Positions 8,748 to 62,213 of a stretch of DNA of 64,000 nt are shown here, one piece after another (the first letter of the stretch is position 1; every line of letters starts with the position of its first letter). This DNA is from Phaeotremella fagi. Its lineage: Eukaryota; Basidiomycota; Tremellomycetes; Tremellales; Phaeotremellaceae. Position numbers and translations under genes: made by a program. Below the pieces are notes generated by a model. The model searched no databases. It saw nothing but the letters and a program-made list of their open reading frames with translations, and was not told the origin of the DNA. Where the stretch lies: contig BCHU01000013.1 of assembly GCA_001599715.1 (NCBI GenBank), positions 806,001-870,000 of the forward strand. The letters are read 5' to 3'.

Positions 8748-11700
8748 ATGCCTCCTCCAGAACGACTACCTCCCCATCATCATCATCAACATCATCCTCA
8801 TTCTTATGGTCCAAGTAACGGTGGTCCACCTCCACCCAGTTCGAATTACGCACCAATCATGTCAAACCCATCTTCACGTCATTCGCATAGACACATTTCA
8901 CACTCTGGGGGACCACCACCACCCATGTCGGTAAACAATGGTCCACCTCCAGTTTCAATGGGGGCACCTTCAGATGCAGCCCCGCCACCAAGTAACGGTC
9001 ACAACGGTCATTCTTATGCGGGAATGAGTCCAGCTGTCCGAGCAGCTAAAGACACGATGGATGGTGTTCTGGCTCAACTCGCCACCGCAAACGAGAACAC
9101 TTGGATGTTGATTGGTAGGTTGAACTTGATGGCTTTGCTAACAATCCTAGGCGCTGTCTCTGAACAAATGCAAGATCAAGATAAAGCTCTTTCAGCGTTC
9201 GAACATGCCCTCCGTCATAATCCAATGTCAATTCTTGGTCTCAACGCCGTCGCGTCGATAGCGAGAAGTAGAGACGACTTCAATAAAGCTATCGAATATT
9301 TCCAAAGAATTCTGAATATAAAACAGGATAACGGAGAAGTCTGGGGTTCAATGGGTCATTGTTTGCTCATGAAGGATGACTTACCAAAAGCATACACCGC
9401 TTATCAACAAGCTCTGTTCTATCTACCTAATCCAAAAGTGAGCTTCACAGCCACTTCACCAGTTGCGAACGAAGCTGACTTTTATAGGAACCAAAATTGT
9501 GGTACGGTATCGGAATCCTTTACGATCGATATGGATCATTCGAACATGCCGAAGAAGCCTTCTCCAGTGTTTTGAAAATGGATCCAAGTGAGTGAAACAT
9601 TGATTCAGTGCTAACCTTTAGATTTCGAAAAAGCAAACGAAATCTACTTCCGCTTGGGCATCATTTACAAACATCAACGCAAATATGGTGCATCTCTAGA
9701 AGTAAGTTTTTGATTCTGGGGCTATACTGATACCAGTGTTTCCGATATATTTTAAACAACCCTCCTCGACCTCTCACTGCTTGGGATATCTGGTTCCAAC
9801 TTGGTCATGTTTATGAACAGGATCAAGACGTAAGTGTACTGTCATGAAACGACGCTGATGTCTATTAGTACGTCGCTGCTCGAGATGCCTACAATCGAGT
9901 CCTTCAACAACAACCCGATCACGCCAAGGTCTTACAACAGCTTGGATGGCTTTATCATCAACCTGGAGCACCTTTCGCTAATCAAGAAATGTCTGTTCAA
10001 TATCTTACCAGAAGCTTGGAAACCGATGGTAGTGATGCTCAAAGTTGGTATCTTCTAGGAAGAGCTTTCATGGCTGGTCAACGATACAACAAAGCATACG
10101 AAGCCTATCAACAAGCTGTTTATCGAGATGGAAGAAATCCAACCTTCTGGTGTTCGATTGGTGTTTTGTATTACCAAATCAATCAATACCGTGATGCGCT
10201 CGATGCTTATTCCCGAGCTATTCGTCTTAACCCTTACATCAGTGAGGTTTGGTTCAATCTTGGAAGTCTTTACGAATCATGTAACAACCAAGTCACCGAT
10301 GCTATCGATGCGTATTCTCGAGCAGCCGAACTTGATCCTGGAAATAAAAGTATCAGAGACAGACTCTCCATTCTTCAACAAGCTCAACCCGGTCAACAGA
10401 TTGGACCAGCACCTCCTCCAATTGATGTTCACCCATCGCAATATTCTGCTACACCACAGGGAGCTAATGGTTCACCTGGTTCACCAATGCCTCAAGTTGA
10501 TGTTCAAGGTAGAGATCTTCCACCGCCACCTCCAGATGCTAATCGATCTCCCGGACCGTTCCGCGGTGGAGCTGCTCCTCCACCCCTTGCTCATGTTGAT
10601 GAATCAAGAGGTGCTATGGGAGCTCATGCACCACTTGCACCAATGGAGGATGGACCTCGTCGTGATCCGAGAGATGGTCGTGAGGGACCATTCAACGGAT
10701 CAGGTCCAACGAGATACGATCCAACGAACGATAGTCGTCGTCACGCAAATTCTCCAGGTTCACCACGTCGAGATTTCCCTCCACCGCAAGGATATGCATA
10801 TCATCCAGGTCCGCCTGGTTCAGGTGGTCCACCCGGACCTCCAGGTCCACCGTTCAGTCGGGACAGAGAAGAATGGGAGAGATCACGAAGACATCCAGGT
10901 CAATCTCATGATCCTCGTCAACCCTCACCTAGAATGATGGATAGGATGCCTCATCAACAAGATCCTCGAAGACAACCATCACCTCGTATGCCTCAAGATT
11001 ATCGATCTGAGTATAGAGGTCCAGGTCCGGATGGTTATTATCCTTCTGATAGAGGACCTCCACAAGGTTATTCACAAGGTCCCGATCCACGATATGAACT
11101 CAAGAGGGAAAGAGATGATCGTCCTTCCGGACCTGATAACGGTAATGGTAATGGCGGTTTACGAATTCCGTCATCATCTAGAGATCGTCCACCAGAGGAT
11201 GTTCGTCAACCCAGTCCAGCTCCTTCAACCAGTTCTAAAACTAGTACGAAACGTAAATCCGATAAAAAAGATGAGAGCTCTAAACGACCGAGGGAAGATA
11301 AACCTGCAAGCAAGAAGGGTAGTGGTTCAGAGAAGAAAAACAAGGTTGCCCGTTCGGAAGATGGGACGGCTGATAGTAGTCCAACAAGTCGTGGACAACA
11401 GACACCGATTCAAACACCTCAACCAGCTCCTTCGCGTGCGGTTGATGAAGGTAGGTCAATGATTTTGAATTGATCGAAACTGACAAAATAGATTACGATG
11501 AAGGTGCAGCCGACGCTTTGATGTTCCTACACGGTGATAGACCAGTTGAGAAGGATACAAATAACAAAAGACCAGATCCACCTTCCCCGACTACACCTCA
11601 AGCAGCTAAGAAATCGAAACCCTCCGAATCAGGTTCAGGATCGCCGAAAAATTCACCAGCTAAATCGGATAGAGTTCGAACGGTCATTGAAGTTCTCAAT

Positions 11701-45129: not shown

Positions 45130-46863
45130 ATGTCAATATCAATACCACTCAGCGAAGTAGGATTATCACCAGCTCAACTATCAAGTTGTGCCCGAGGTAA
45201 ATTCATTCTTCTTCCACAAAAGCGATCAGTCAAGCGACAACTTACCAAATACAGCTGATCTACACACGGCCCAAGATATCCTTCTTCTTTCACCACAAGA
45301 ACTGATCAAAAAGCTCAACCTAAAAACACAACCCAACAACCATCAACAACCCCATCAGATCGTTTCGAATTTGATCAAGCAAGTTTCTAAATCGATTTTA
45401 CCGGTTGTTTCGTGTGGTGATGGTTCTGGATCAGGATTAGTCAGGGGTGATGGAGAAAGATTCGTTAGATTCGGTGATGAAGGGTTGGATGGGATACTTG
45501 GTGGTGGTGTTCGACGTGGGGTATTGACGGAAATCGCTGGAGAGAGGTGAGTTAATCTATGAGTATCTTAGAATAAATATTTACTGGATCATCATCTTAC
45601 AGCGCAGCTGGTAAATCCCATTTAGCACTCACTTTAGCTCTAACCGCTCAAATCCCTTCTCTGACAACATCACCCGGCGGTTCGATAATACTCACAACAG
45701 AAAGGAATATCCCCGTCGATAGATTACTCTCAATCTCGAAAACTCTATTACAGATCCATCATGATAACACGAAAACAGTTGTTACAAGTAAAAAACTACT
45801 TGACAACATCCATACAACGAAATTTTCAGAGATTGATCATTTAATCAATTTTTTACATTATAAATTATCTGCGTTCTTGGAGATACGAAATGGTGGTCGT
45901 GGTCGTACCGAAGGGAGAGGGGCATCAGAAGAGGAAACGTCACATTTAGATGGTATAGAAGGATCTAATCCTATACGATTGATCATTTTGGATTCCATCA
46001 CGTCACTTCTAAGGGGTGATTCGACTTCACCTGCGAATACGCTATCTCTGACCGAGAGATCAAGACATTTATGTCAAATTTCCGATCTTTTAAAACATTA
46101 TGCTGAAAAATACGATCTGGCGGTGGTAGTGATCAATCAGGTTACCGATGTATTCCCCAAATCCAAACCCCCACCCCAACAACAACAACAAGATGATGAT
46201 AACGTCAATGGGGTCGTACCACCATCATCTTCTATGGTCCTTTCACAATTCTATTCGGATGGACAGGAACCACCGATGATCTACTCTACCCAGAGTAGAT
46301 GGTTCTCAGGTCAATCTAGTAGTTACAAGAAAGAAGCTAGTTTGGGGATCGTTTGGGCTAACGCTGTGAACACTAGAATCATGGTATCCAGAACGGGTCG
46401 AAGGAGGATCATGAGTGAACAAGATATATTCAGTAAACGAAGGAAGGTTCATGGGAATATTCAATCCATCGAGGAAGAGATTGAAACGGATACATTACTA
46501 TCTGATGAACCAACTTCAACCTTGATTCGTCGATTCCATCTCGTTTTCTCACCTTTCTCGCAATCAGCTACGATAGATTACACAATCACTTCAACAGGTG
46601 TACATTCATTACCCGATTCCTACAAGATTGAAAATATCTCAAAAGAGGTCAGGAGTAGAGCGAGAAGAGCTAAGGCTATACTTGAGAAGGAGATTATTGA
46701 GAACGGGGAAGATGAGATTGGTGGTGCGGATTTGGGGACTGTTTTTGACGAATATGGGGATTTACCTTCTGATTTTTGGGAGGGGAGGTTGGAGAGTGAT
46801 GGTGTTGAGGTTGATGTTGAGGGTGAGAGTGAGGACGGTGTTGATCCTCCTTTGGAGGTTTGA
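45130..46863 (+). CDS. RAD57: RAD51 paralogue Rad57 (XRCC3-like)
   Basis: Start ATG 45130 (MSISIPLSEVGLSPAQL), stop TGA 46861-46863, three exons. N-terminal helical domain with LHTAQDILLLSPQELI, then the RecA core: FGDEGLDGILGGGVRRG, Walker A GESAAGKSH split by an intron, SIILTTERNIPVDRL and Walker B IRLIILDSITSLL, with VVVINQVTDVF next. This order and the TELAG-like lead-in to Walker A fit Rad57/XRCC3 better than Rad51 or Rad55. An insertion of about 50 residues with a Gln/Asp run (QQQQQDDDN) follows VINQVTD, and a long acidic C-terminal tail is present. Rad55-Rad57 promotes Rad51 filament assembly in homologous recombination. The first exon is short and its join is chosen by frame and a TACAG acceptor. 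Confidence 0.88.
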
Positions 46864-47381
46864 TGGAGGGCAAAAGATTGGTTGGGTGTGGATTATTTGG
46901 TGATGGCCTGTTTTTTCTGATTTTGGGTTTAGTTGTTCGTCAATACCTGCATATATAATTCCCGAACGTGAAGTATGTCATGGATAGACTTGTTGTTATC
47001 AGTAAAACGATCCTTCTACCGACGCCTCCAACGCAGTCGTGGATCTTAATTTACTCTGTTATCAATCGGGTATAACCACAAAATTCACTAGAATATTGAG
47101 GTCCTTCTTGCGTGGTGTCTTCGTTTCATTGCCCCTATACCCGATAACTAGAAAACGCATCCTTCGATAGTCATTTATTTTTATTTTTTTTATTTTTCTT
47201 TTTTCTTGATTACCGACAGAAGCCCTTGCTCCTAAGCCGTCCATGCTTTTTTGAAATGGGCTTCGACTGGTTCGACACAAAAGCCTACGATATTTTCAGA
47301 ATCTCTTCTCTTCTTTACTTTCACTTTGTTCGCCACTTCAAGTGAATATTTCGTTAATCATCAAAGTACTTAGTATCAATC
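46864..47381. promoter_or_regulatory. RAD57 3' region and gene A1 promoter (duplicated with A4)
   Basis: From about 47073 the sequence matches the promoter of gene A4 (from about 50654) up to the start codon. Shared blocks include ATTCACTAGAATA, TGGTGTCTTCGTTTCATT, AAGCCTACGA and ATTTTCAGAATCTCTTCTCT. A1 carries an extra stretch of about 105 bases (about 47142-47245, with a long T/A run) absent from A4. Confidence 0.7.
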
Positions 47382-47909
47382 ATGTCCAACAAAGAACACG
47401 ACCACCCAGAATGGGATGAGCTCATCTCCGAAATCAATACCAGTATCAAAGGTACAGGGTTAGATACCGATCTTTGGGCATCAATCAATCAGAAACTCAG
47501 AAGACTTGGTACTTCTAGATATACCTTCTCAGAGCTTGAGGATTTAGAACAAAAACTAGAAACCATCTCACAATCAGTTGAAGATGAAACCCTCAAGACT
47601 AGACTTCATGATGTTAAAGGCGGTGTTCAGATGATCAAGACAATTTCCAAAGCTGATCAGTGAGTGTGAATTACTCTCAATTTTAAGTAGAGATCATTAA
47701 TTTACGTTGCATCAATTCGACATCATAGGACCGAAATCCAAAAACTCAGAGACCAGTTGAAGAAATCGGAAAATCGGGAGAAAGAAACGCAGGGAACATT
47801 AATCAGAGAAACGAGGACGGGAAATATAGTTACTAATATTCTCCTGCTTAGAACAGCCGTCGATACGTACGATTTTGTCAGAGCTCTAATGAGAGGTTCT
47901 TCTTCTTGA
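47382..47909 (+). CDS. Orphan array protein A1 (exon 1 near-identical to A4)
   Basis: ATG 47382 (MSNKEHDHPEWDELIS). Exon 1 is 47382-47659 and a 69-base intron (GTGAGT..CATAG) follows. Exon 2 starts at 47729; read through, it stops at TGA 47907-47909, giving 152 residues. Exon 1 encodes a helical, W-containing module (DLWASINQKLRRLGTS, ELEDLEQKLETISQSV); its last 28 or so residues, including TRLHDVKGGVQMIKTISK, are almost identical to A4. Exon 2 starts as a coiled coil (TEIQKLRDQLKKSEN) and ends only weakly hydrophobic. Downstream in an open frame (47955-48239) lies a clear hydrophobic stretch (VGVVAGSMYLILILLQ) resembling the A4 anchor (VGVMAS..), so a third exon or a damaged end is possible. 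No family recognised; first of five tandem paralogues. Confidence 0.68.
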
Positions 47910-48770
47910 TGTGTAGCTGACGAGATGTTTGTATTATTTGGTATCTTGCAGTAGTATGAAAGAGTTGGAGTTGTGGCTGGAAGTATGTATCTGATTTTGA
48001 TCTTGTTGCAAGTGGCACCGGAACAGGTTACCCCAGCACAAAGTGCAGATATCCTGCACGGGGCTACTACTGCCTCAGAATGGATGGAGGCACAGTACAT
48101 ACGGGATATGCTAGATTACAGGATTACCTATGAAGGTGGCTACACTTTCACTCAAAGATTATCTCTCCCCAGAAGGGTCAAACTGAGCACTACAATAACC
48201 CGTATCAACGTAATACTGTACTTGTGGCACTTCTTTTGAAAGTGTCTTCTGCCCGAACTCGATGTGCAAATTCCTTCTGAGCCATGGAGCTGTCTAGAAG
48301 GCTGTGCTAAAAGCCGTCTAGATAATTTTATGAATGACTACCTTGCCTTCCTGCAAATTGGCAGATCACTGCTCCCAAATTGAATACATAAACAGAGTTT
48401 ACATATACGTAATGTGGTTAGCCGTGTTTTAGTTTGAGGGAAAGAGGTATCTCCGAATGAAGATGAGTGCATTTGATGCTGATGATGTCAGATCTGGTAT
48501 ATTTCTAGTCCCCCGCTCAATCACCATGTCTGTAAGGATGGACATCGATTTCCCGAAATCCCTTGACGTCTGAAGAAAGGTTCACTGAAATGCCAAACTG
48601 AGTATGCCTTCTTTCGGTGAAACCCCAAACGAAACTGCAAGAAGACCCGATAGTATCTTTCAACGGCCTCTTGTGTCTTCTTGGGAGAAGTATCACCTAT
48701 TCTGTTTCAAACAACCAACTACAACGTCAGCGACTTTTGTTCAATAACGATAAACGATCCATACCCAGTC
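47910..48770. other. Intergenic A1-A2, including a possible A1 terminal exon
   Basis: 47955-48239 is an open plus frame beginning with a membrane-helix-like segment; it could be A1 exon 3 through a CAGTAG acceptor. The remainder is A2 promoter with GCCTTCTTTC at 48606-48615, 165 bases before the A2 start. Confidence 0.4.
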
Positions 48771-49257
48771 ATGTCAACAAAATGGAGCGAACTAATTAGT
48801 GGTCTCGATGAGCGAGTTCAGACTGAAGGTTTAAACTCAGAAGTCTGGATTCCACTCAGCGAGAAACTAAAATTCGACACCATAACTCAATATACTGCAG
48901 CACAAGTCACTGAGTTAGAAGAAAAAATCAAAGAATTCGCCAGTACGGTTGAAGATAAGGATACTCAAGAACGTTTCGAGAACCTCACGAGTTTTTTGAG
49001 TCTTCTTATGGAGTCCAAAGAACATGCTCAGTAAGTCAATCTCGTTTTGGGGTAGATAGACTTGCACGACTCATATTTCAATGTTTTCTAGAGTGCAGCT
49101 TGAGAAGAAACTCGAAGTTTATAATAGGGTGTCTAAGTCAAAAATGGCAGAAATGAGAAACCAAATCTTCGTGTGTGCTGGAATGCTTGTATTCGTCTCC
49201 GCCGGTTTCATCAGTGTGGTAGCACATGAGAACGGCTCAAAAGGAAGTACCCCATAA
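48771..49257 (+). CDS. Orphan tail-anchored array protein A2
   Basis: ATG 48771 (MSTKWSELISGLDERV), exon 1 to 49030, 61-base intron (GTAAGT..TCTAG), exon 2 49092-49257, TAA 49255-49257; 141 residues. Exon 1 repeats the family pattern W..LI..L, then VW..L.EKL, then ELEEKIKEFASTVEDKD. Exon 2 encodes a basic coiled coil (QLEKKLEVYNRVSKSK) and a strong membrane helix at about residues 111-131 (IFVCAGMLVFVSAGFISVVA), followed by a ten-residue tail. The layout is that of a tail-anchored protein with the helical module facing the cytosol. The intron lies at the same place and phase (CA|x) as in A1 and A4. No named family recognised. Confidence 0.75.
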
Positions 49258-49755
49258 TCTGGATGTAGCTACTGCATATGCTGTACGAGTACATTCAGTA
49301 GTAACGGGACAGATGTCGTCTTTCAATTTGTTGTAGTCGTTCCTTATTTTTCATTGTTTTATATACAGTATGCATCCGAAGTTTCTGTAGGGTTGATTAC
49401 ATAAACAGTATCCTGCAAAAGCTGTTCCAGCGTTGAATTTCTGAAATCCGGTAGGTGGTTTGGACTCTTTCTAAGGAACAGGAGGAAATGCTAATTGCAT
49501 GCGCTAGACTCTATTGTACACTCTTTGCACTGGGCAGTTACCACTGTAATGACCTGCAACACTACTGTACTGTATGTCCGGTGTTTAATGCAATGTTTCT
49601 AAACAACCAATATGAAGTCCGACACTCCCGTCGTGAAAGGAGGCTCAAGCAAATTGCCTTCTTCCCGAGTCGGAGCTCATTGTTAAGGTGTGCATGAACA
49701 GTTTTGTTCTTTCCTCTTACCAACTTCATTCAATTCGAAAATACATTGTACAATA
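49258..49755. promoter_or_regulatory. A2 3' region and A3 promoter
   Basis: About 500 bases with GCCTTCTTCC at 49656-49665, 100 bases before the A3 start. No coding signal. Confidence 0.4.
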
Positions 49756-50225
49756 ATGTCAACCTCATTATGGGAAGAACGACTGTCGAAGCTCAAGTCT
49801 GATGGTCTCAAATACAAGATCTTTGATAAAACTTGGCCCCAGATTGAAGATGAACTTGAGACGGCTAGCCTAGATGCTACGAACTCACAGAAACTAAGAA
49901 ATCTTCAAGAACGTTTGAGCAAGTTCTCTCCTAAATTTTTGGCAACTAACACCGAGAGTTACGAAAATTTTATCCACGTCTATGAGACAGTGAAGGCTTT
50001 TTCGGAGAAGCGCCTGGAAGAGGAGTAAGTGTAGAGCCGACTTGTGAACTGTGCAAGTACGGCGGGGGTTTATATAATCTGACAAACGGTCCTAGAAACA
50101 CATCCGAGGCTGACGCATACTTTGCGGCACCCAGATATGAAACGATGTTTAACAGTTTTTTTCTGGCAACAGGATCAGCCATCATCATCGGCGTTGCACT
50201 CACAGTGGGGACAACGTCAGAGTAA
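49756..50225 (+). CDS. Orphan tail-anchored array protein A3
   Basis: ATG 49756 (MSTSLWEERLSKLKSD), exon 1 to 50024, 71-base intron (GTAAGT..CCTAG), exon 2 50096-50225, TAA 50223-50225; 132 residues. The exon 1 module is the most divergent of the five but keeps W..(R)L..L, TW..IEDEL and a LRNLQERLSKF helix. Exon 2 is short, with a hydrophobic segment at about residues 108-128 (FFLATGSAIIIGVALTVG) and a four-residue tail. The intron again falls after codon positions one and two (GA|A), matching the other array members. Its assignment to the family rests on position, exon structure and this pattern. Function unknown. Confidence 0.72.
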
Positions 50226-50856
50226 CAGAGAGGTCAATGATTGGGTGGTAAATATTTTAGCTTGTTGAAGGATGTAAAATTTGATAGTTTCAAATAGCAG
50301 TTGTCTTTGGAAAGAGTTTTGTTGTATCGGAAGACTCATTCTATGTACAAGTACATCTATAATGTTGAAGAGACTGTTCTATATGGCTAAACTCAAGATA
50401 CACACCGTGTTTTACGATTTTCAATTGATCCATCCGGAAATTGGGGCTTCTGATTTACCCTCTACAAAGTCTCCCCAAGAATAAAAATTGAATCAGTACT
50501 TTTGGTATCGCAGTTGAATTCATCATGAGATTGGCTGTGCCTGCTAGTCCTTCAGAAGGAAAGGGTTATATCAGAACACAAGATCATTTTTTGTTGGGAT
50601 CAGCAGTAGCTCGACGGCTTCAGGCAGCCAGGAGAAACTAATAGCATACATATCACCACAGAATTCACTAGAATACTGTGATCCTTTGTGTATGGTGTCT
50701 TCGTTTCATTACCCGCTTTTTGAAATCGCCTTCGACTTGTTAGACACATAAGCCTACGACATTTTCAGAATCTCTTCTCTTCTTTTCTTTTCACTTTCTT
50801 TGCCACCTCAAGTAACTATTTCCTAAATCTCTAAACTACTGTACTTGTTAACTATC
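50226..50856. promoter_or_regulatory. A3 3' region and A4 promoter (duplicated with A1)
   Basis: From about 50654 to the A4 start it matches the A1 promoter. GCCTTCGAC occurs at 50728-50736. The open frame at 50281-50484 is not protein-like. Confidence 0.6.
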
Positions 50857-51380
50857 ATGTCCGACGAAGAACATAATCAAGAACACCAAGAGTGGGATGG
50901 GCTCATCTCCCACCTCAATACCAGTATCAGAAATACCAACTCAGATATCGACCTTTGGGAATCAATCAATCATGAACTCACAAAGCTTGGTACTTCCAAA
51001 TTTTCCTTCTCAGAGCTTGAGGAGTTAGAACAACAACTAGATACTCTCTCACAATCAGTCCAAGATGAAGATATCAAGACTCGGCTTCATGATGTTAAAG
51101 GTGGTGTTCAGATGATCAAAACAATTTCCAAAGCTGATCAGTGAGTGTTCATCTTTAAGCGCATACGCTGACCAACGATGACAGGTCTGAGCTCATGCAA
51201 CTCAAAGAGGAAATAGATAGATTGAAGGCTAGTCGAAGGGAGGATCGAAGAAAAGATGTAGAATTCAAGGGTTACGTTCGACTCTATACTGTTGGTGTCA
51301 TGGCGAGCGCGACCATGACTCTTGTTAGTCAACTTTGGAGCTTGTACACCATTAGTCAATTGTCGGCTCGAGGTCAATAA
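50857..51380 (+). CDS. Orphan tail-anchored array protein A4 (duplicate of A1)
   Basis: ATG 50857 (MSDEEHNQEHQEWDGLIS), exon 1 to 51140, 44-base intron (GTGAGT..GACAG), exon 2 51185-51380, TAA 51378-51380; 159 residues. The frame is open a few codons upstream but without ATG. Exon 1 is closely similar to A1 (INTSI versus LNTSI, then a shared SELE.LEQ.L helix and TRLHDVKGGVQMIKTISK). Exon 2 encodes a coiled coil (ELMQLKEEIDRLKASRRED) and a membrane helix at about residues 128-150 (LYTVGVMASATMTLVSQL), with a short tail. Compared with A1, the anchor half has diverged far more than the N-terminal half. No named family. Confidence 0.76.
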
Positions 51381-52021
51381 TCCCAGCTCTCTTTTGTGAG
51401 GTTGAAATGAGGAGGATTTTTCAGTATTCAGAGTATGAGTTGTAGCGTGATGTAAATGATTTCTTTGATTGTTACTGAAAAATGGGAGCAGGTCAGCAAG
51501 AAACAAATTCGGCCAGTGGCGATTTGCATGAGCAAAAGTGCAGTCATTAAAGACTTATTCTGTGTCTTGTCCAGCTGCTTTCTAAGACTAGATTTTCTTT
51601 TTCATCTCTTAATGGCCGTCTTTCTAGTTCAATAAGCACTGTACAGAACGACAGGTCATCGCCTTCCGCTCCACCAAATCTGAGCAGAAATCTGTGGATT
51701 TCTTTGCCTGAAATATCATTCCCCGCCTAGCCATGCTCCGTGCCAATTGCCTTCTCATGCAGTCATTAGATGTGCTCGGTTGTCAGGCAATCACGTACGG
51801 GAGTAAGCAGTGTTTCGCCTTCTTCTCGAGTGGTATGTGGCTTCTCATTTTTCTGGAAAGACAGTGAACTTTGAACATTTATAGACATATCTTTTGACCA
51901 AAATGCGTCAGGAAGGGTCGCGCCTTCTGTCGCTCGACACCTCAAGCAAAGTCTCTTCGTCTTTTGCCACTCTACATACCAAACATCACGATTTGAGTCT
52001 GAATTACAACAACAGAGAAAG
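51381..52021. promoter_or_regulatory. A4 3' region and A5 promoter
   Basis: About 640 bases with GCCTTCT at about 51757, 51817 and 51922 on the plus strand. No coding signal. Confidence 0.4.
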
Positions 52022-52542
52022 ATGGAGATGGAACATCACATAATGGAGATGCAATCTTGGGACGAATTCATGGAATCACTCGATTCGGTCGTTCAAAATA
52101 CCGATAAATTGAGTTCAGAAACTTGGAGTGAACTTCGAGGTAAAGTATCAGTCCCGGAAGAGTTATGGTTCAATACAGACGAGCACAGAGACCAACTGCT
52201 CGAAAAAGTTAGGTCGTTTACCAGTGTTTTGGATGCTAACGAGCAATCCAAGGAATTCGATCACCTCTTACTTTTGATTGAGGGTTTACCAAGTGCTCGA
52301 CAATGTCTTGAGTGAGTATATCATACTGTAACACATTACTGTGGTTCAGCTGAACTGAAATTGTTATCAGAGATGAACAGCATCGAATAGACGAAATCCG
52401 GCGGGTCAGAAGAATGGTGGAACTGACAGTAGTTGGTACAGCTAGCATCGCGATGCTAATCAGTGCTCTCTCTAGATACTACTGTCAACAAGATTCTAGG
52501 GAACGATTTGTAGATGGATTACAAATCCAGAACACAACATAG
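52022..52542 (+). CDS. Orphan tail-anchored array protein A5
   Basis: ATG 52022 (MEMEHHIMEMQSWDEFM), exon 1 to 52311, 59-base intron (GTGAGT..TCAG), exon 2 52371-52542, TAG 52540-52542; 153 residues. Exon 1 has the family pattern SWDEFMESLDSVV, ETWSELRGKV, then a helical QLLEKVRSFTSVLD segment. Exon 2 begins with a basic helix (RIDEIRRVRRMVE) and a hydrophobic segment at about residues 115-132 (LTVVGTASIAMLISALS). Its tail of about 22 residues is the longest in the array. The intron position and phase (GA|A) match its paralogues. It converges with TRF4, with only 72 bases between stop codons. Function unknown. Confidence 0.74.
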
Positions 52543-56853: not shown

Positions 56854-57637
56854 CTACCCATTACATATTCCACAACTGTCAATAACATTACCACAATCCT
56901 TCTCCATATTAGCCCACCAATAGTTTTCTGAAAGCGTCTCATTCATGATCGAAACAGAATTATGTATTGTGGAATCAGAAGGACAATGAGCTTCGAACAA
57001 CAATCCATCTCGTACTTCACCAGCAGGTGGAACAAGACGAAGGACGTCATCAGGCTCCTCTGGGGATCGATGATATAGTAAACCAATTTCAGATACGACA
57101 TACCCCCCAATCTCAGCTTGTGCTTGGTCGCACATGACCTCATTCCACACTGGATCTTCAGGATACGCCGTTAACCATCTTTCAACGTCGTCGTCTAAAA
57201 CTTCTTCACTATCGTCTGTGAACTGTTCAGGATTGCCGCCGTGTTCAAGTGCAGCCGCTTGAAGCCCTCGGTCGAGAGCTTTGGGTGTTGGTCGATCGAT
57301 ATAACTGGTCGTAGGCAAGGGAGCAAAGAACGACGAATCCCTTGTCCTGTATTTTTCTTTCGTTCGATTTATTATCTGGATGTTCAAAACATCTATCGGA
57401 TTCAGGAAATCTCGAAAAGATCGTCTCTGCAGATGCAGATTGTCAATTTCGATGATGCACTCTGTGCCAGAGCTGGAAAAACTTACTGGTGACAATAAGA
57501 GATAATTTAAACTGCTCAGGAAACAATCCAAGTTGAGTAAAAACGTAATTAGAGGTATATAACCTCCAATTCTATAATCAAATCAGTGCTCACTCCCTTC
57601 TCGTCAAATCAATATCGTACCCACCCCAAACCAACAT
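56854..57637 (-). CDS. Stand-alone integrase-type H2C2 zinc-domain protein (retroelement-derived)
   Basis: Main exon on the minus strand from about 57426 to TAG 56854-56856. The proposed start is ATG 57637 (MLVWGGYDIDLTRR). An 82-base intron (GTGAGC..AGCAG) follows, then a 25-base exon (LNYLLLSP) and a 60-base intron (GTAAGT..CTGCAG). This model keeps one frame into RRSFRDFLNPIDVLNI and TSYIDRPTPKALDRG. The C-terminal 80 residues match the Ty3/Gypsy integrase zinc-binding arrangement: GLLYHRS, then LLFEAHCPSDSTIH, then NYWWANMEKDC and a final SCGIC. Only this domain is present, with no reverse transcriptase, RNase H or integrase core. It is thus a relic or a domesticated host gene. The first exons are uncertain and overlap the neighbouring gene's 3' end. 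Confidence 0.62.
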
Positions 57638-58771
57638 CTTTTGACAAAGTGGCAGAAGAGATCTGTCGTTGAAAAGCAACCGCCACAAAGAAGTACAGTT
57701 TAGTCAACACAATGTTTTGAGTTTGACTTACAGAGGAAAGCGATAGAACTCCAGAGATGAAAGCGTAGACGTGACCAATAGGACTTTTAGCGTGACCCCA
57801 CCAAACCCACCAGATCATCGAATGACTTTGCGAAGGATGTTGCTGACATTTGACCAATAGTTCGACTTCCCTTTTCAACCTTCGTCTTGAGTAGCTGATT
57901 TTGTTATCATTTTCCTTGCTGTTACTAGATGAATTTTTGATCAAGTGGTTTAGTGGTAGTGATAATACATGATGAAGATAGTAGAGGGATATTGATGTTA
58001 CTAAGGTGAAAGCGGTTTGTAGCCAAGAAAGACAGATTGTGGCTGACAAAAGTTGATCAAGGTATTTAAGCAGAGGACTGTGAATGTCAGTTATCAATGT
58101 TGACCAAAACTTACTCTCCAGGAATCTCAATCCTGAAGTCAGAAGTGGCAAAGTCCTCTCTAACATAATTTGAACAAGTGAGGCTAGACAAGCTCAGTAT
58201 CCAGTAAGTGTCATCGATGGTAGAGTACTTACTCATCTAACGTACACCATCCCAAAACTCCTAAAACAAAATCACCCTCAGTCGCGCTAATATCAAAAGT
58301 ATTTCTCCCAATGTTCAATATTCCACTCACCCCCCCACCCAAACCTCTACTACAAACCAAAAGTGCCGAAGCCAAAATTGAAAAACAGAAAACAAAAACG
58401 AATCTCCAAGTCGAATAAAACTCAAACAATCTACCATCTCGCCAATCCTTCCTCTGCTGCGGATATCTCACAACACGTTTAGGGTTTAAGTTATCTCTAT
58501 GTACACTGTATAAAGGTGAGGCGACTGACATCCTACCCAGTCGATGTTGGGAGGACGCGTTGATGTATCGTGGGGCAGTTTGGATTTCTGGTTGTGGCCT
58601 GTCAGGTCGACGGATTTTTGGGAGTGCGATTTCTGGGTTTAGGGGTGAGAGATCTTGGAAATCTATTATTGAGGGGAGGGTACTTCGAAATCGAGAGTTT
58701 TTGGAGCTAGTTTGAAAGTTGTTGATCTCATTGTGACGGTCCATTTTCTCGGTTCTTGATTCTGAGGACAT
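57609..58771 (-). CDS. Hypothetical multi-pass membrane protein
   Basis: Start ATG 58771 (MSSESRTEKMDRHNEI). About 110 residues of hydrophilic N-terminus precede a first membrane helix (FVFVFCFSILASALLV) and GLGGGVSGILNIGRN. Short introns then lead to LTCSNYVREDFATSD and further hydrophobic helices (LSATICLSWLQTAFTLV, SLYYLHHVLSL) and, after a basic loop, GHVYAFISGVLSLSS; probably four spans. The 3' end is unresolved. Reading through or splicing at CGACAG stops at 57609 (..KDVGLGWVRY). An alternative frame, giving ..LLPLCQKMLVWGGYDID, looks more protein-like and stops at 57590. No family recognised; topology suggests an ER or nuclear-envelope protein but this is a guess. Confidence 0.58.
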
Positions 58772-59218
58772 ATCAGGTTTTCCATGCCTTGTTTTTTTTT
58801 TTTTGCCTACCTCTTGCTTCGTTCATGCCCACAATCTTGGTGATAATCTTTACTAGCTACCGTGATGATACAATTGAGTAAGATATGATAATGAGTACAA
58901 AGGTGTAGGTTATGTATACATTTGTTACCCGCAGCATCACGAATTATCCCTCGAATGGAACAAAGGATGTACTGAGTATGGGATATGGGAGATGTCGTAA
59001 ATCACATTTGTCTCACTCAAATGCACTCTCTTTCAATGGTCACTGAAGGAGTTCGAAATATACATATATTGCTTCTGTACGTATAAAAATTTGGACTGTA
59101 TATGTTTCTCAGTATCTACAATCATTCTCAAACTACGACGACCATCCTTCGAAGTCTTTCTTTCCATATCATCGCCTTCTCTTTCGCGATTATTACTCCA
59201 GCTCGTAATACTTTCGTG
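58772..59218. other. Intergenic: membrane-protein promoter and 3' region of the F-box-like gene
   Basis: About 450 bases, with a T11-14 run near 58790. No coding signal. Confidence 0.35.
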
Positions 59219-60545
59219 TCATCTTCCTTCAAGTCTACTTCTTTCCTTCTTGCTTTGAATGTCATTTTCATATGTGGAACCGCATGCTTCACATGCAGGT
59301 CTTTCTGACCAATCTTTGACACTAAATCTTTCTGGTGGAAAAAGTGTATTTGGAGGAATAGTACCTCCAAATAGCTTCTCTACATTTCCTGGGACCGTCA
59401 AATCGAACTGTGAAAGATCACTGACCGTTGAGCTGTCGAGGTAAACCTCGATCGAAGTCGCTGAAGTAGATGAGATTGGATCTTGGTTATTGTAAAGATG
59501 ATTGGAGAAATTTGATCTCAGCTGCTGATTGAAGAGCATACATGAGATCAAACATCTATAATGATCATCCATAACTTGATGGTGAGCGTTCTCGACTTTC
59601 AAATGAAAGACATTTTTGATACCGGGCACAGCGTCCCAACGACGTGAATCAGAATTGTGGTGAGTGACAGTGAAGTGATTCTTGTTGATGTCTTTTGGTT
59701 TGAACGGTTGAAGTCTTGAGCAGAAGTGCTCCACATCGGTTGAAGTAGCCAACCGCCGGAATCCATCAGTGATTAAGGAATATTGATTATCGAGTCTGTA
59801 TAAGACCCCAAGCATGTTGACTGTATCTTTGCCACGGATATCACGTCGACTGTTAAGTAAGGCTTGCAAGTGTTTTTCGTCGAATGTCGGTGATAAAGAG
59901 AATGTTCTCAAATTAACGAAGATCCCATGGATTTGGTGATACGTTATCAAACTCTCTACTCCTTGAACCCACGACTTGGCTTCAGTTGTGAAGGAGTCGG
60001 TGACCGACCTAAGACCCTCATCTACTGTAAATAGACCACCGTCGTCCATTGATGGAAAGAATCTATATCTTTGAGGTAAATCACGATGATATCGATGAAC
60101 CAAATGGAAATTGACGATAAGTTGAAGAAGATGACGTTTACTTTTGGATTTACGCTGAGATATACCAATTTTTGGAGAGCTGGGATGATTGAACAACCTT
60201 CAAGTAGGAGATTGATATCGTGAACGAATATTGATTTATAGAGGTAAGGAATAGTCATCTCATTGAAAGTCTAATTTGGTACATCAGCTTACAATACATT
60301 GGTCGATAAATTTTGCTCCAGAACACATGGAAATCACTCACTGAGTTGATCCTCATCATGGTGGCAAGACCATTTTGATGCAGATCAGTCCATGTAGCAC
60401 CATCGAGATTCTTAGGAGGGGGTCTATGAAGGAATCTGATGATGTTGTCGAAAATCTCCAATGGAAACATTGGGGCATCGTCTCTTGGATTTGATGATGT
60501 ATCTGGAGCAGTTTGAGGTGATAGCAAGGTGGAATCGTTGTCCAT
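59219..60545 (-). CDS. F-box-like protein with C-terminal CxxCGS motif (paralogue 1)
   Basis: Start ATG 60545 (MDNDSTLLSPQTAPDT), an intron after the MMRINS codons, stop TGA 59219-59221; roughly 420 residues. Residues 28-90 look like a fungal F-box-type start (FPLEIFDNIIRFLHRPPP, then LATMMRINS, then FNEMTIPYLYKSIFV). The middle is alpha/beta with LLQLIVNFHLVHRYHRD and a possible leucine-rich-like sheet (SIEVYLDSS). The C-terminus has DLTVPGNVEKLFGG and RPACEACGS. It aligns over its whole length with the next gene upstream, including the intron position. F-box proteins recruit substrates to SCF ubiquitin ligases; here the Skp1-binding part is only suggested by pattern. Confidence 0.68.
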
Positions 60546-60859
60546 GATTACGAAGAGCTAGCTTATGAGCTGTGGTTGTGAAATGATGAATTGATTGATG
60601 ATGGGAATGAATCAAAGTTCATTGATGTCAACGCTCGAACCAATGCTGATTTGAAACACTAGTGGCAAAAATCTCTCGTGGTCAGTCAATACCACAGTTG
60701 AATCGAGATTCGAAAGCCCATGATCAGCAGGATGGATTCGACCCGTATCATACTAGCGCACCTGAACGTCTGTGAACATATTGCATACAATTCTCTATCT
60801 ATCACAATTAAGACCCAACAACCTTCCTATACTTTCCAAAGTACTCATCAGTTATGACC
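60546..60859. other. Intergenic between the two F-box-like paralogues
   Basis: About 310 bases; promoter of the downstream paralogue. Nothing else seen. Confidence 0.35.
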
Positions 60860-62213
60860 TCATTTAATAGAACCACAACCTTGACATTGGGGTTTCTCCG
60901 ACCGTTGTTTGATGACGACTTTTCCTGGCACTAAACCATTATGACAAGGTTTGCGATTGCAGACGGTGAGAAACTGCTGAAGGTTCTCCGGTACCGTAAG
61001 ATCACCAAGCGTGTGCCAGTCAATAGTCGAATCGAAATAGATTTCAAGTGATGTCGCAGCCGCCAGTTCCTTCGAAATGATTTCACCAGCTTCCTCGCGT
61101 GCTTGGATTCCTCGTCCAAACTTGAAGAGTGCTTCCTCGATGGACGAACGGCATCCAGGGTTAGGGTAGGATCCGGAAATCTTTGGATACAGTTGACAGT
61201 GACCTTTGATATAGTATACATTCCTGACACCACGTTTCATTTCGAAATTAACGGGGTATGAAAACTCATTTGAGGTTTTGACATGTCGAATTAGACTGAT
61301 TTTTTTAGCTGACAATCGTTTCGAGGGGAACAGAAGATTGATCGTTGGGTAATGTTCATAAGTGAGACAAACACTGTCGATATTGATTCGGTCTATTGTC
61401 GTCCAAAACTGATCAGAGATGCCTCGGAGCCACTTCGTGAAAAGAATTAAAAGCTTGTAAGATCGTTTGTTCCCGGGCAGTCTAATGCGATCTAACACGG
61501 GCAGTTGACTGCTGGTGAATGTAGGAAGTAGTGAAATCGTTTTCACATTGATGAGAGAGGGAAATCGTTCTTGATCAGGCGAAGTTGAGCAGAGTTCATC
61601 ATTATCATCGGACCTTTTCAGGTAGTCTAGTCCCTCAACCCATTGTTGAATATCATGAACCATTATATCGAAAGCCTCTGTCACTAGATCCTCGTCGGAC
61701 ACTAGGACTGTTTTCGAGTTCGGATCAACACTTTGTTGGGAGTGCCATTCGAAGTCGTGAACCAAGTGGAAATGGGTGACCTGATTAAGAAGATACCGTT
61801 TGGTTTTAGATTTGCGTTCCAGTATTACTTGATCTGGAACGATCGAAGATGATGATGACGAACAACCTCGAATGAATTTCTGCATGTTACTGACGAACAC
61901 TGATCGATACAATACAGGGATTGTAATTTCGTTGAATTCCTGTTGAAGAAGGTTAGCATCCATTCAACAAAATCAGCAACAAATCGATTGATGGGGCAAG
62001 TGTATCACCAAGACAGACACTCACAGAGTTTATCCTCATCATAGTCGTGAGATCTTGTTGATGCAGATCGGACCATGTAGCACCTTCCAATTCAGTTGGA
62101 GGAGGTCGATATAAGAATGGGATGATGACCCCCCAAACATCGGTTGGGAAAGTTGGACGTGGGTGTTCGTCATCTAAGGGGATTGCAGCTTGATCATGTA
62201 AGTTGGTGTCCAT
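60860..62213 (-). CDS. F-box-like protein with C-terminal CxxCGS motif (paralogue 2)
   Basis: Start taken at ATG 62213 (MDTNLHDQAAIPLDDE) because it aligns with the start of paralogue 1; an in-frame ATG at 62282 would add 23 residues. One intron after MMRINS, stop TGA 60860-60862. Same architecture: FPTDVWGVIIPFLYRPPP, LTTMMRINS, FNEITIPVLYRSVFV, NQVTHFHLVHDFEW, SLEIYFDST, DLTVPENLQQFL, and a terminal KPQCQGCGS with the shared CxxCGS. The middle, about residues 150-260, is poorly alignable with paralogue 1, suggesting divergent ligand-facing sequence. Likely a lineage-specific F-box-like family; no annotation beyond that is supportable. Confidence 0.68.

Follow-up and report, generated by a model that had tools for sequence, protein, structure and literature searches.

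A divergent family of small two-exon genes in Phaeotremella fagi, some predicted to encode C-terminally anchored proteins

Five consecutive plus-strand genes, here called A1 to A5, lie between positions 47382 and 52542 of a 64,000-nucleotide stretch of Phaeotremella fagi DNA (the window, 806001-870000 of contig 13). They are members of one divergent paralogous family, to which at least two genes of a second cluster on contig 4 also belong. The reading that we favour, with a probability of roughly 45%, is that the family comprises fast-evolving, perhaps lineage-restricted small cytosolic adaptors, several of which would be held at a membrane by a C-terminal helix, and that its genes turn over in birth-and-death arrays.

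Results

Exon 1 carries the family signal

All five genes of the array were modelled with two exons and a GT..AG intron of 44-71 nt, which lies in phase 2 after a helical module of about 90 residues. The splice sites of these models, and of the three from contig 4 described below (C4a, C4b and C4c), were chosen by hand, and the models are predicted. No frameshift or internal stop occurs in any of the five, and exon 1 amounts to 86-96 whole codons. As the original prediction had stated, the array thus consists of five cleanly splicing two-exon genes for proteins of 132-159 residues. The paired-tryptophan pattern that it had described is also present, W11, W32 and L55 (A1 numbering) being invariant in all five proteins.

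Identity to A1 in exon 1 was 71% for A4 and 14-24% for the other array members. In a leave-one-out test, each protein of a seven-sequence set (A1-A5, C4a and C4c) was scored with an exon 1 hidden Markov model (HMM) built from the six others. Scores ranged from 24.1 to 84.7 bits, while the best of 500 shuffles per protein reached 7.8-12.4 bits. The highest score belongs to A1, with A1 and A4 raising each other's score, and the lowest to A3, which has the weakest homology support of the five array genes. Among the 28 exon 1 pairs of all eight proteins, 10 were not matched by any of 300 shuffles. What we observed, then, is exon 1 homology, two clusters and an intron phase common to the models, the phase-2 intron following the module in eight of eight, C4b included. 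The proposed paralogy of the five genes therefore beats shuffled sequence, but the family is not confined to the array.

A second cluster on contig 4

The genome was searched exon by exon with A2, A3, A4, A5 and C4a-C4c as single queries. Outside the array, two convincing stretches were found, both on contig 4 (E 2.2e-7 with A5 and 1.1e-5 with A2). Since the searches were made exon by exon, members as distant as A3, which found only itself, would be missed. With C4a-C4c as queries of the genome no further cluster came up, and the matches of C4b at contig 14:436669 (E 1.6) and of A4 at contig 11:454329 (E 0.38) were taken as chance.

C4a is nearest to A2 (z 11.8) and then to A1 (z 9.3), while C4c is nearest to A5 (z 16.9); both are further members of the family. 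The gene between them, C4b, gave no family signal, with a leave-one-out score against all seven of 1.6 bits, where shuffles reach 7.3, and no significant exon 1 pair out of seven (the lowest was matched by 21 of 300 shuffles). Its place in the cluster, its intron phase and its strong C-terminal helix are like those of the family, but its sequence gives no signal, and it is a candidate member. The two clusters are cross-paired in the same order on the coding strand, an A1/A2-like gene standing first and an A5-like gene last. This suggests duplication or transfer of a whole block rather than of one gene, or at least that the two types predate the separation of the clusters.

C-terminal helices

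Hydropathy was taken as the best Kyte-Doolittle mean over 19 residues. The values were 2.52 for A2, 2.41 for C4b, 1.92 for A3, 1.86 for A5, 1.16 for A4, 0.83 for A1 and 0.42 for C4a; that of C4c (1.36) comes from an internal segment, 51 residues before the end. A2, A3 and A5 each have one hydrophobic helix at most 23 residues from the C-terminus and none stronger before it. Four of the eight proteins (A2, A3, A5 and C4b; three of seven without C4b) end in a helix of at least 1.8; of 651 open reading frame (ORF) ends, taken from all frames of the window with the array genes included, 34 reach that value and leave a tail of no more than 25 residues. The value of A4 is reached by 129 of these 651 ends. 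By hydropathy, A2, A3, A5 and C4b look tail-anchored, A4 is uncertain, and A1, C4a and C4c do not.

A C-terminal helix had been predicted for A2-A5, preceded by a basic part, in a tail-anchored layout. The helix is clear in A2, A3 and A5 but weak in A4, and it is absent from A1, as had been allowed for; by hydropathy the layout holds for A2, A3 and A5 and is plausible for A4, but not for A1. The second part is basic in some copies but not throughout: counted from a fixed cut at residue 92, which lies close to each exon border without coinciding with it, the net charge was +3 in A1 and A2, +2 in A4, 0 in A5 and -3 in A3. Between second exons, the A1-A4 pair alone exceeds z 3 (z 3.3).

Downstream of the A1 stop, an open frame (47955-48239, plus strand) starts with a hydrophobic helix that by eye resembles that of A4. 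Its codon score (-0.181, see below) is background-like, and no consensus donor joining A1 in frame was seen by eye. It is possibly a third A1 exon or a remnant of an older A1 anchor.

Coding signal and upstream regions

Six exon stretches with Pfam matches (two TPR, Sec6, methionine synthase, RAD57 and poly(A) polymerase), all from the window, served as the training set for codon usage. As background we took 276 windows covering the six frames of the array region, real frames included; the 95% line lay at 0.054 and the maximum at 0.294. Exon 1 of A1, A2, A4 and A5 scored 0.19-0.29, above that line. A3 was the weakest of the five and not above background (exon 1 0.026, whole gene -0.020). The second exons scored -0.015 (A1), 0.033 (A2), -0.141 (A3), 0.199 (A4) and -0.149 (A5). 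In five divergent exon 1 pairs, synonymous change was 0.60-0.88 per site versus 0.45-0.51 for non-synonymous change, an excess that fits proteins under constraint, with codon alignments made on protein similarity, which favours such an excess.

Eight upstream stretches of 300 bases were compared, A1 and A4 being counted once for shared k-mers. No 10-mer and a single 9-mer was common to at least three of the eight. Three pairs resembling the heat-shock element (HSE; background 0.27 per region) and one stress response element (STRE; background 0.29) were found in the eight regions, which is no enrichment; of sites resembling the cAMP response element (CRE) there were two, both upstream of A2 (background 0.13), a small excess in a single gene. 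Lineage-specific selection, for which stress, self-recognition and organelle membranes had been named as open possibilities, drew no support from heat-shock or STRE-type sites, and amino-acid change between the first exons of A1 and A4 is not significantly different from that of random substitution (see Discussion).

A stretch shared by A1 and A4 ends inside the intron

The DNA of A1 and A4 is similar from the promoter across the leader and exon 1 as far as the eighth base of the intron, where the similarity ends. Identity in blastn was 82% over about 420 bp (47248-47667 versus 50717-51148) and 84% over 64 bases further upstream (47071-47134 versus 50651-50714). Beyond that point, DNA matches between the 3' parts of the two genes stay at chance level, and the second exons can no longer be aligned as DNA. 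Two histories would fit: a unit of promoter and exon 1 may have been joined to another second exon by copying, or two older genes may have undergone conversion of exon 1. The tandem expansion and marked divergence proposed earlier are supported, and the contig 4 cluster and this partial duplication or conversion extend them.

Structure prediction and known families

The structure predicted for A1 exon 1 has four helices, with a mean predicted local distance difference test (pLDDT) score of 81.8 and a predicted template modelling (pTM) score of 0.68. A fold search with the module returned generic bundles and no telling match. No credible Pfam match was obtained for A1-A5 or C4a-C4c, and in NCBIfam, which is prokaryote-oriented, none of A1-A5 had a match over the cut-off; as far as these libraries go, the earlier statement that no named family is recognisable is supported.

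Some candidates were rejected. PF18078 (SNTX thioredoxin-like) gave 23.3 bits with A5 exon 1 against a cut-off of 22.9; full-length A5 fell below it (21.7 bits), and A1-A4, C4a, C4b and even C4c, the nearest paralogue, had no match. Searched against the genome, this model matched once, with 19.5 bits at A5. A further difference is the all-helical structure predicted, with low confidence, for the A5 module, and A5 exon 1 had no match at E <=1 among PDB sequences. The match of C4b to MBR1 (mitochondrial biogenesis regulation; E 5.5e-4, 20.4 bits against a cut-off of 25) was given no support by the others. Matches to GroEL, obtained with a profile of the five proteins against PDB (50 sequences at E <=1, best 0.011), were considered chance helical matches.

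Homologues

With an alignment of A1-A5, a protein database yielded 2275 candidates, none at E <=0.01, and with A4 alone 38, none at E <=1. The neighbouring RAD57 gene, used as a control, gave 131 relatives among 7996 candidates scored. Among the matches listed, the best had 58% identity and proteins named as from Tremellales 38-47%, among them those of Kwoniella mangroviensis (47%), Tremellales sp. Uapishka_1 (45%) and Naematelia encephala (45%). The database thus reaches the Tremellales but shows no close relative of the source fungus. Therefore, the lack of matches says little about a fast-evolving family, and the label 'orphan' is provisional. We found no literature on tail-anchored gene families in Tremellomycetes or on lineage-specific tandem duplication of tail-anchored proteins in fungi, and by title nothing on such a family within the literature on tandem gene conversion in Tremellales; the ten papers listed first on Kwoniella, tandem arrays and orphan genes did not name that genus.

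Discussion

In the proposal that we favour, exon 1 would encode a four-helix interaction module, and exon 2 a short linker with a membrane-contact part, which would be one C-terminal helix in A2, A3, A5 and, should it belong to the family, C4b, marginal in A4 and without a clear counterpart in A1, C4a and C4c. The protein would be made in the cytosol and its helix inserted post-translationally into the endoplasmic reticulum (ER) or the mitochondrial outer membrane, leaving the module exposed to the cytosol to bind a quickly changing partner. Copies would arise by tandem duplication. With a phase-2 intron dividing module from anchor, promoter and module could be copied or converted together and leave the anchor behind, as in A1 and A4. 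Expression, membrane insertion, the adaptor role and the partner are what we infer here.

Several results weigh against this proposal. A1, C4a and C4c are without a clear transmembrane helix, so that the family cannot be defined by an anchor, and second exons other than those of A1 and A4 do not align, which leaves a common descent of the anchors unsupported. Codon scores are negative for the second exons of A1, A3 and A5. A structure model with A5 first was poor (pLDDT 65.0, pTM 0.46), its helix order being alike. Lastly, purifying selection between the first exons of A1 and A4 was not significant, with 27 amino-acid changes versus 30.7 expected (P 0.11) when the same 45 substitutions were placed at random, 19% of the trials being without a stop.

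The alternative that survives best, doubtful as we consider it, is that of soluble or peripheral helical proteins in which bundle and coiled coil are the working unit and the hydrophobic ends of some copies are buried in an oligomer or touch a membrane at its surface alone. It would account for the three of eight proteins without a clear transmembrane helix and for the marginal value of A4, and the helical moment peaks within the last 60 residues at 0.54 in A1 and 0.53 in C4c. However, the hydropathies of A2 and C4b are well inside the transmembrane range, and end helices of at least 1.8 are more frequent in the eight proteins than in the background.

A partly decayed array is unlikely, and it overlaps with the membrane-adaptor proposal. 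In such an array A4 (or A1) would be functional together with one or two further copies, while A3 and the second exon of A1 would be degenerating, as might be read from the whole-gene codon score of A3 and from the three second exons that score below zero. The five uninterrupted reading frames and the leave-one-out score of A3 argue against it.

We consider it improbable that a known housekeeping family (SNARE-like, BLOC-like or another coiled-coil subunit) has diverged here past recognition. Syntaxin-type SNAREs consist of an N-terminal helical bundle, a coil and a C-terminal anchor, and the general layout of the array proteins is alike; weak, sub-threshold Pfam matches such as that of A1 to Muted, a coiled-coil family, and that of C4b to MBR1 point the same way. 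However, no SNARE model matched A1-A5 at E <=1 in the Pfam scan, the coil of exon 2 appears too short for a SNARE motif of about 60 residues, and the PDB profile and fold searches returned weak helical matches and generic bundles.

Proteins of a self/non-self system or selfish element, testing a rapidly changing partner, such as another strain, a virus or a drive element, at the membrane with conflict driving the turnover of the arrays, are quite improbable: the low exon 1 identities outside the A1/A4 pair, the two arrays, the copying limited to exon 1 and the near-neutral first half of A1/A4 exon 1 (non-synonymous rate dN 0.23, synonymous rate dS 0.28) would agree with them, but relaxed constraint yields the same numbers, and no conflict-protein domain exceeded a Pfam cut-off apart from the rejected SNTX match.

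As regards known systems, DUP240 genes lie in tandem and encode larger proteins with more transmembrane segments. In the part of PMC4055711 that concerns them, the DUP240 proteins of Saccharomyces cerevisiae appear as a lineage-specific expansion of non-essential integral membrane proteins with an ill-defined role, linked with membrane trafficking. The likeness, an expansion of putative membrane proteins that is perhaps lineage-specific, is an evolutionary parallel without any claim of homology, whereas the A1-A5 family has at most one C-terminal helix and a putatively cytosolic module. No DUP model was among the listed Pfam matches, no direct comparison with DUP240 having been made. The single near-terminal hydrophobic helix of A2, A3 and A5 would suit tail-anchored proteins, which are inserted after translation as clients of GET or of the mitochondrial outer membrane, while A1, C4a and C4c differ in this; that class is a topology and not a homologous family.

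An apparently undescribed compact protein family is added in this way to the Tremellales, which include well-studied yeasts; the family is well supported, its function only inferred. With its cross-paired clusters and the break of the A1/A4 similarity just after the 5' splice site, it offers a modest model for studying the recombination of module and anchor exons in tandem arrays. It is conceivable, at very long odds, that the array shuffles its four-helix module, for recognition, against different anchors at the phase-2 intron and forms a membrane-displayed conflict repertoire for allorecognition or for defence against viruses or selfish elements. Conflict-driven change, if true, would be of wide interest.

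Features and neighbouring genes

Table 1. Features of the two clusters. Positions are those of the window unless a contig or residues are given.
Feature	Location	Strand	Remarks
A1	47382-47909	+	exons 47382-47659, 47729-47909; 152 aa; from splice model, hydropathy and leave-one-out
A2	48771-49257	+	exons 48771-49030, 49092-49257; 141 aa; hub of the family
A3	49756-50225	+	exons 49756-50024, 50096-50225; 132 aa
A4	50857-51380	+	exons 50857-51140, 51185-51380; 159 aa; closest paralogue in exon 1 is A1
A5	52022-52542	+	exons 52022-52311, 52371-52542; 153 aa; nearest relative C4c, not an array neighbour
C4a	contig 4:1186808-1186410	-	one phase-2 intron
C4b	contig 4:1186026-1185508	-	one phase-2 intron; between C4a and C4c
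C4c	contig 4:1185104-1184510	-	one phase-2 intron
Shared stretch, copy 1	47071-47667	+	A1 promoter and exon 1, plus 8 nt at the 5' end of the intron (blastn)
Shared stretch, copy 2	50651-51148	+	A4 promoter and exon 1, plus 8 nt at the 5' end of the intron (blastn)
A2 C-terminal hydrophobic helix	residues 112-130		11-residue tail
A3 C-terminal hydrophobic helix	residues 111-129
A4 weak C-terminal hydrophobic stretch	residues 130-148
A5 C-terminal hydrophobic helix	residues 112-130		23-residue tail

The assembly comprises 22.6 Mb in 24 contigs, and the genes studied have short introns. Directly upstream of the array, ORF 45577-46863 is RAD57, its relatives including RAD57 of Tremellales and other fungi; downstream lies a Cid1/TRF4-type poly(A) polymerase gene on the minus strand. 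On contig 4, a CWH43/PGAP2IP-like gene is found downstream of the cluster, and among the few flanking genes identified none was common to the two clusters. The minus-strand ORF 56854-57582, some 4 kb downstream of the array, has an integrase zinc-binding domain (PF17921, E 1.7e-07) and is likely a piece of a retroelement; four more minus-strand ORFs (57609-61963) had no Pfam match at the thresholds used. Elsewhere in the window, a long plus-strand ORF (9869-11470) carries TPR repeats.

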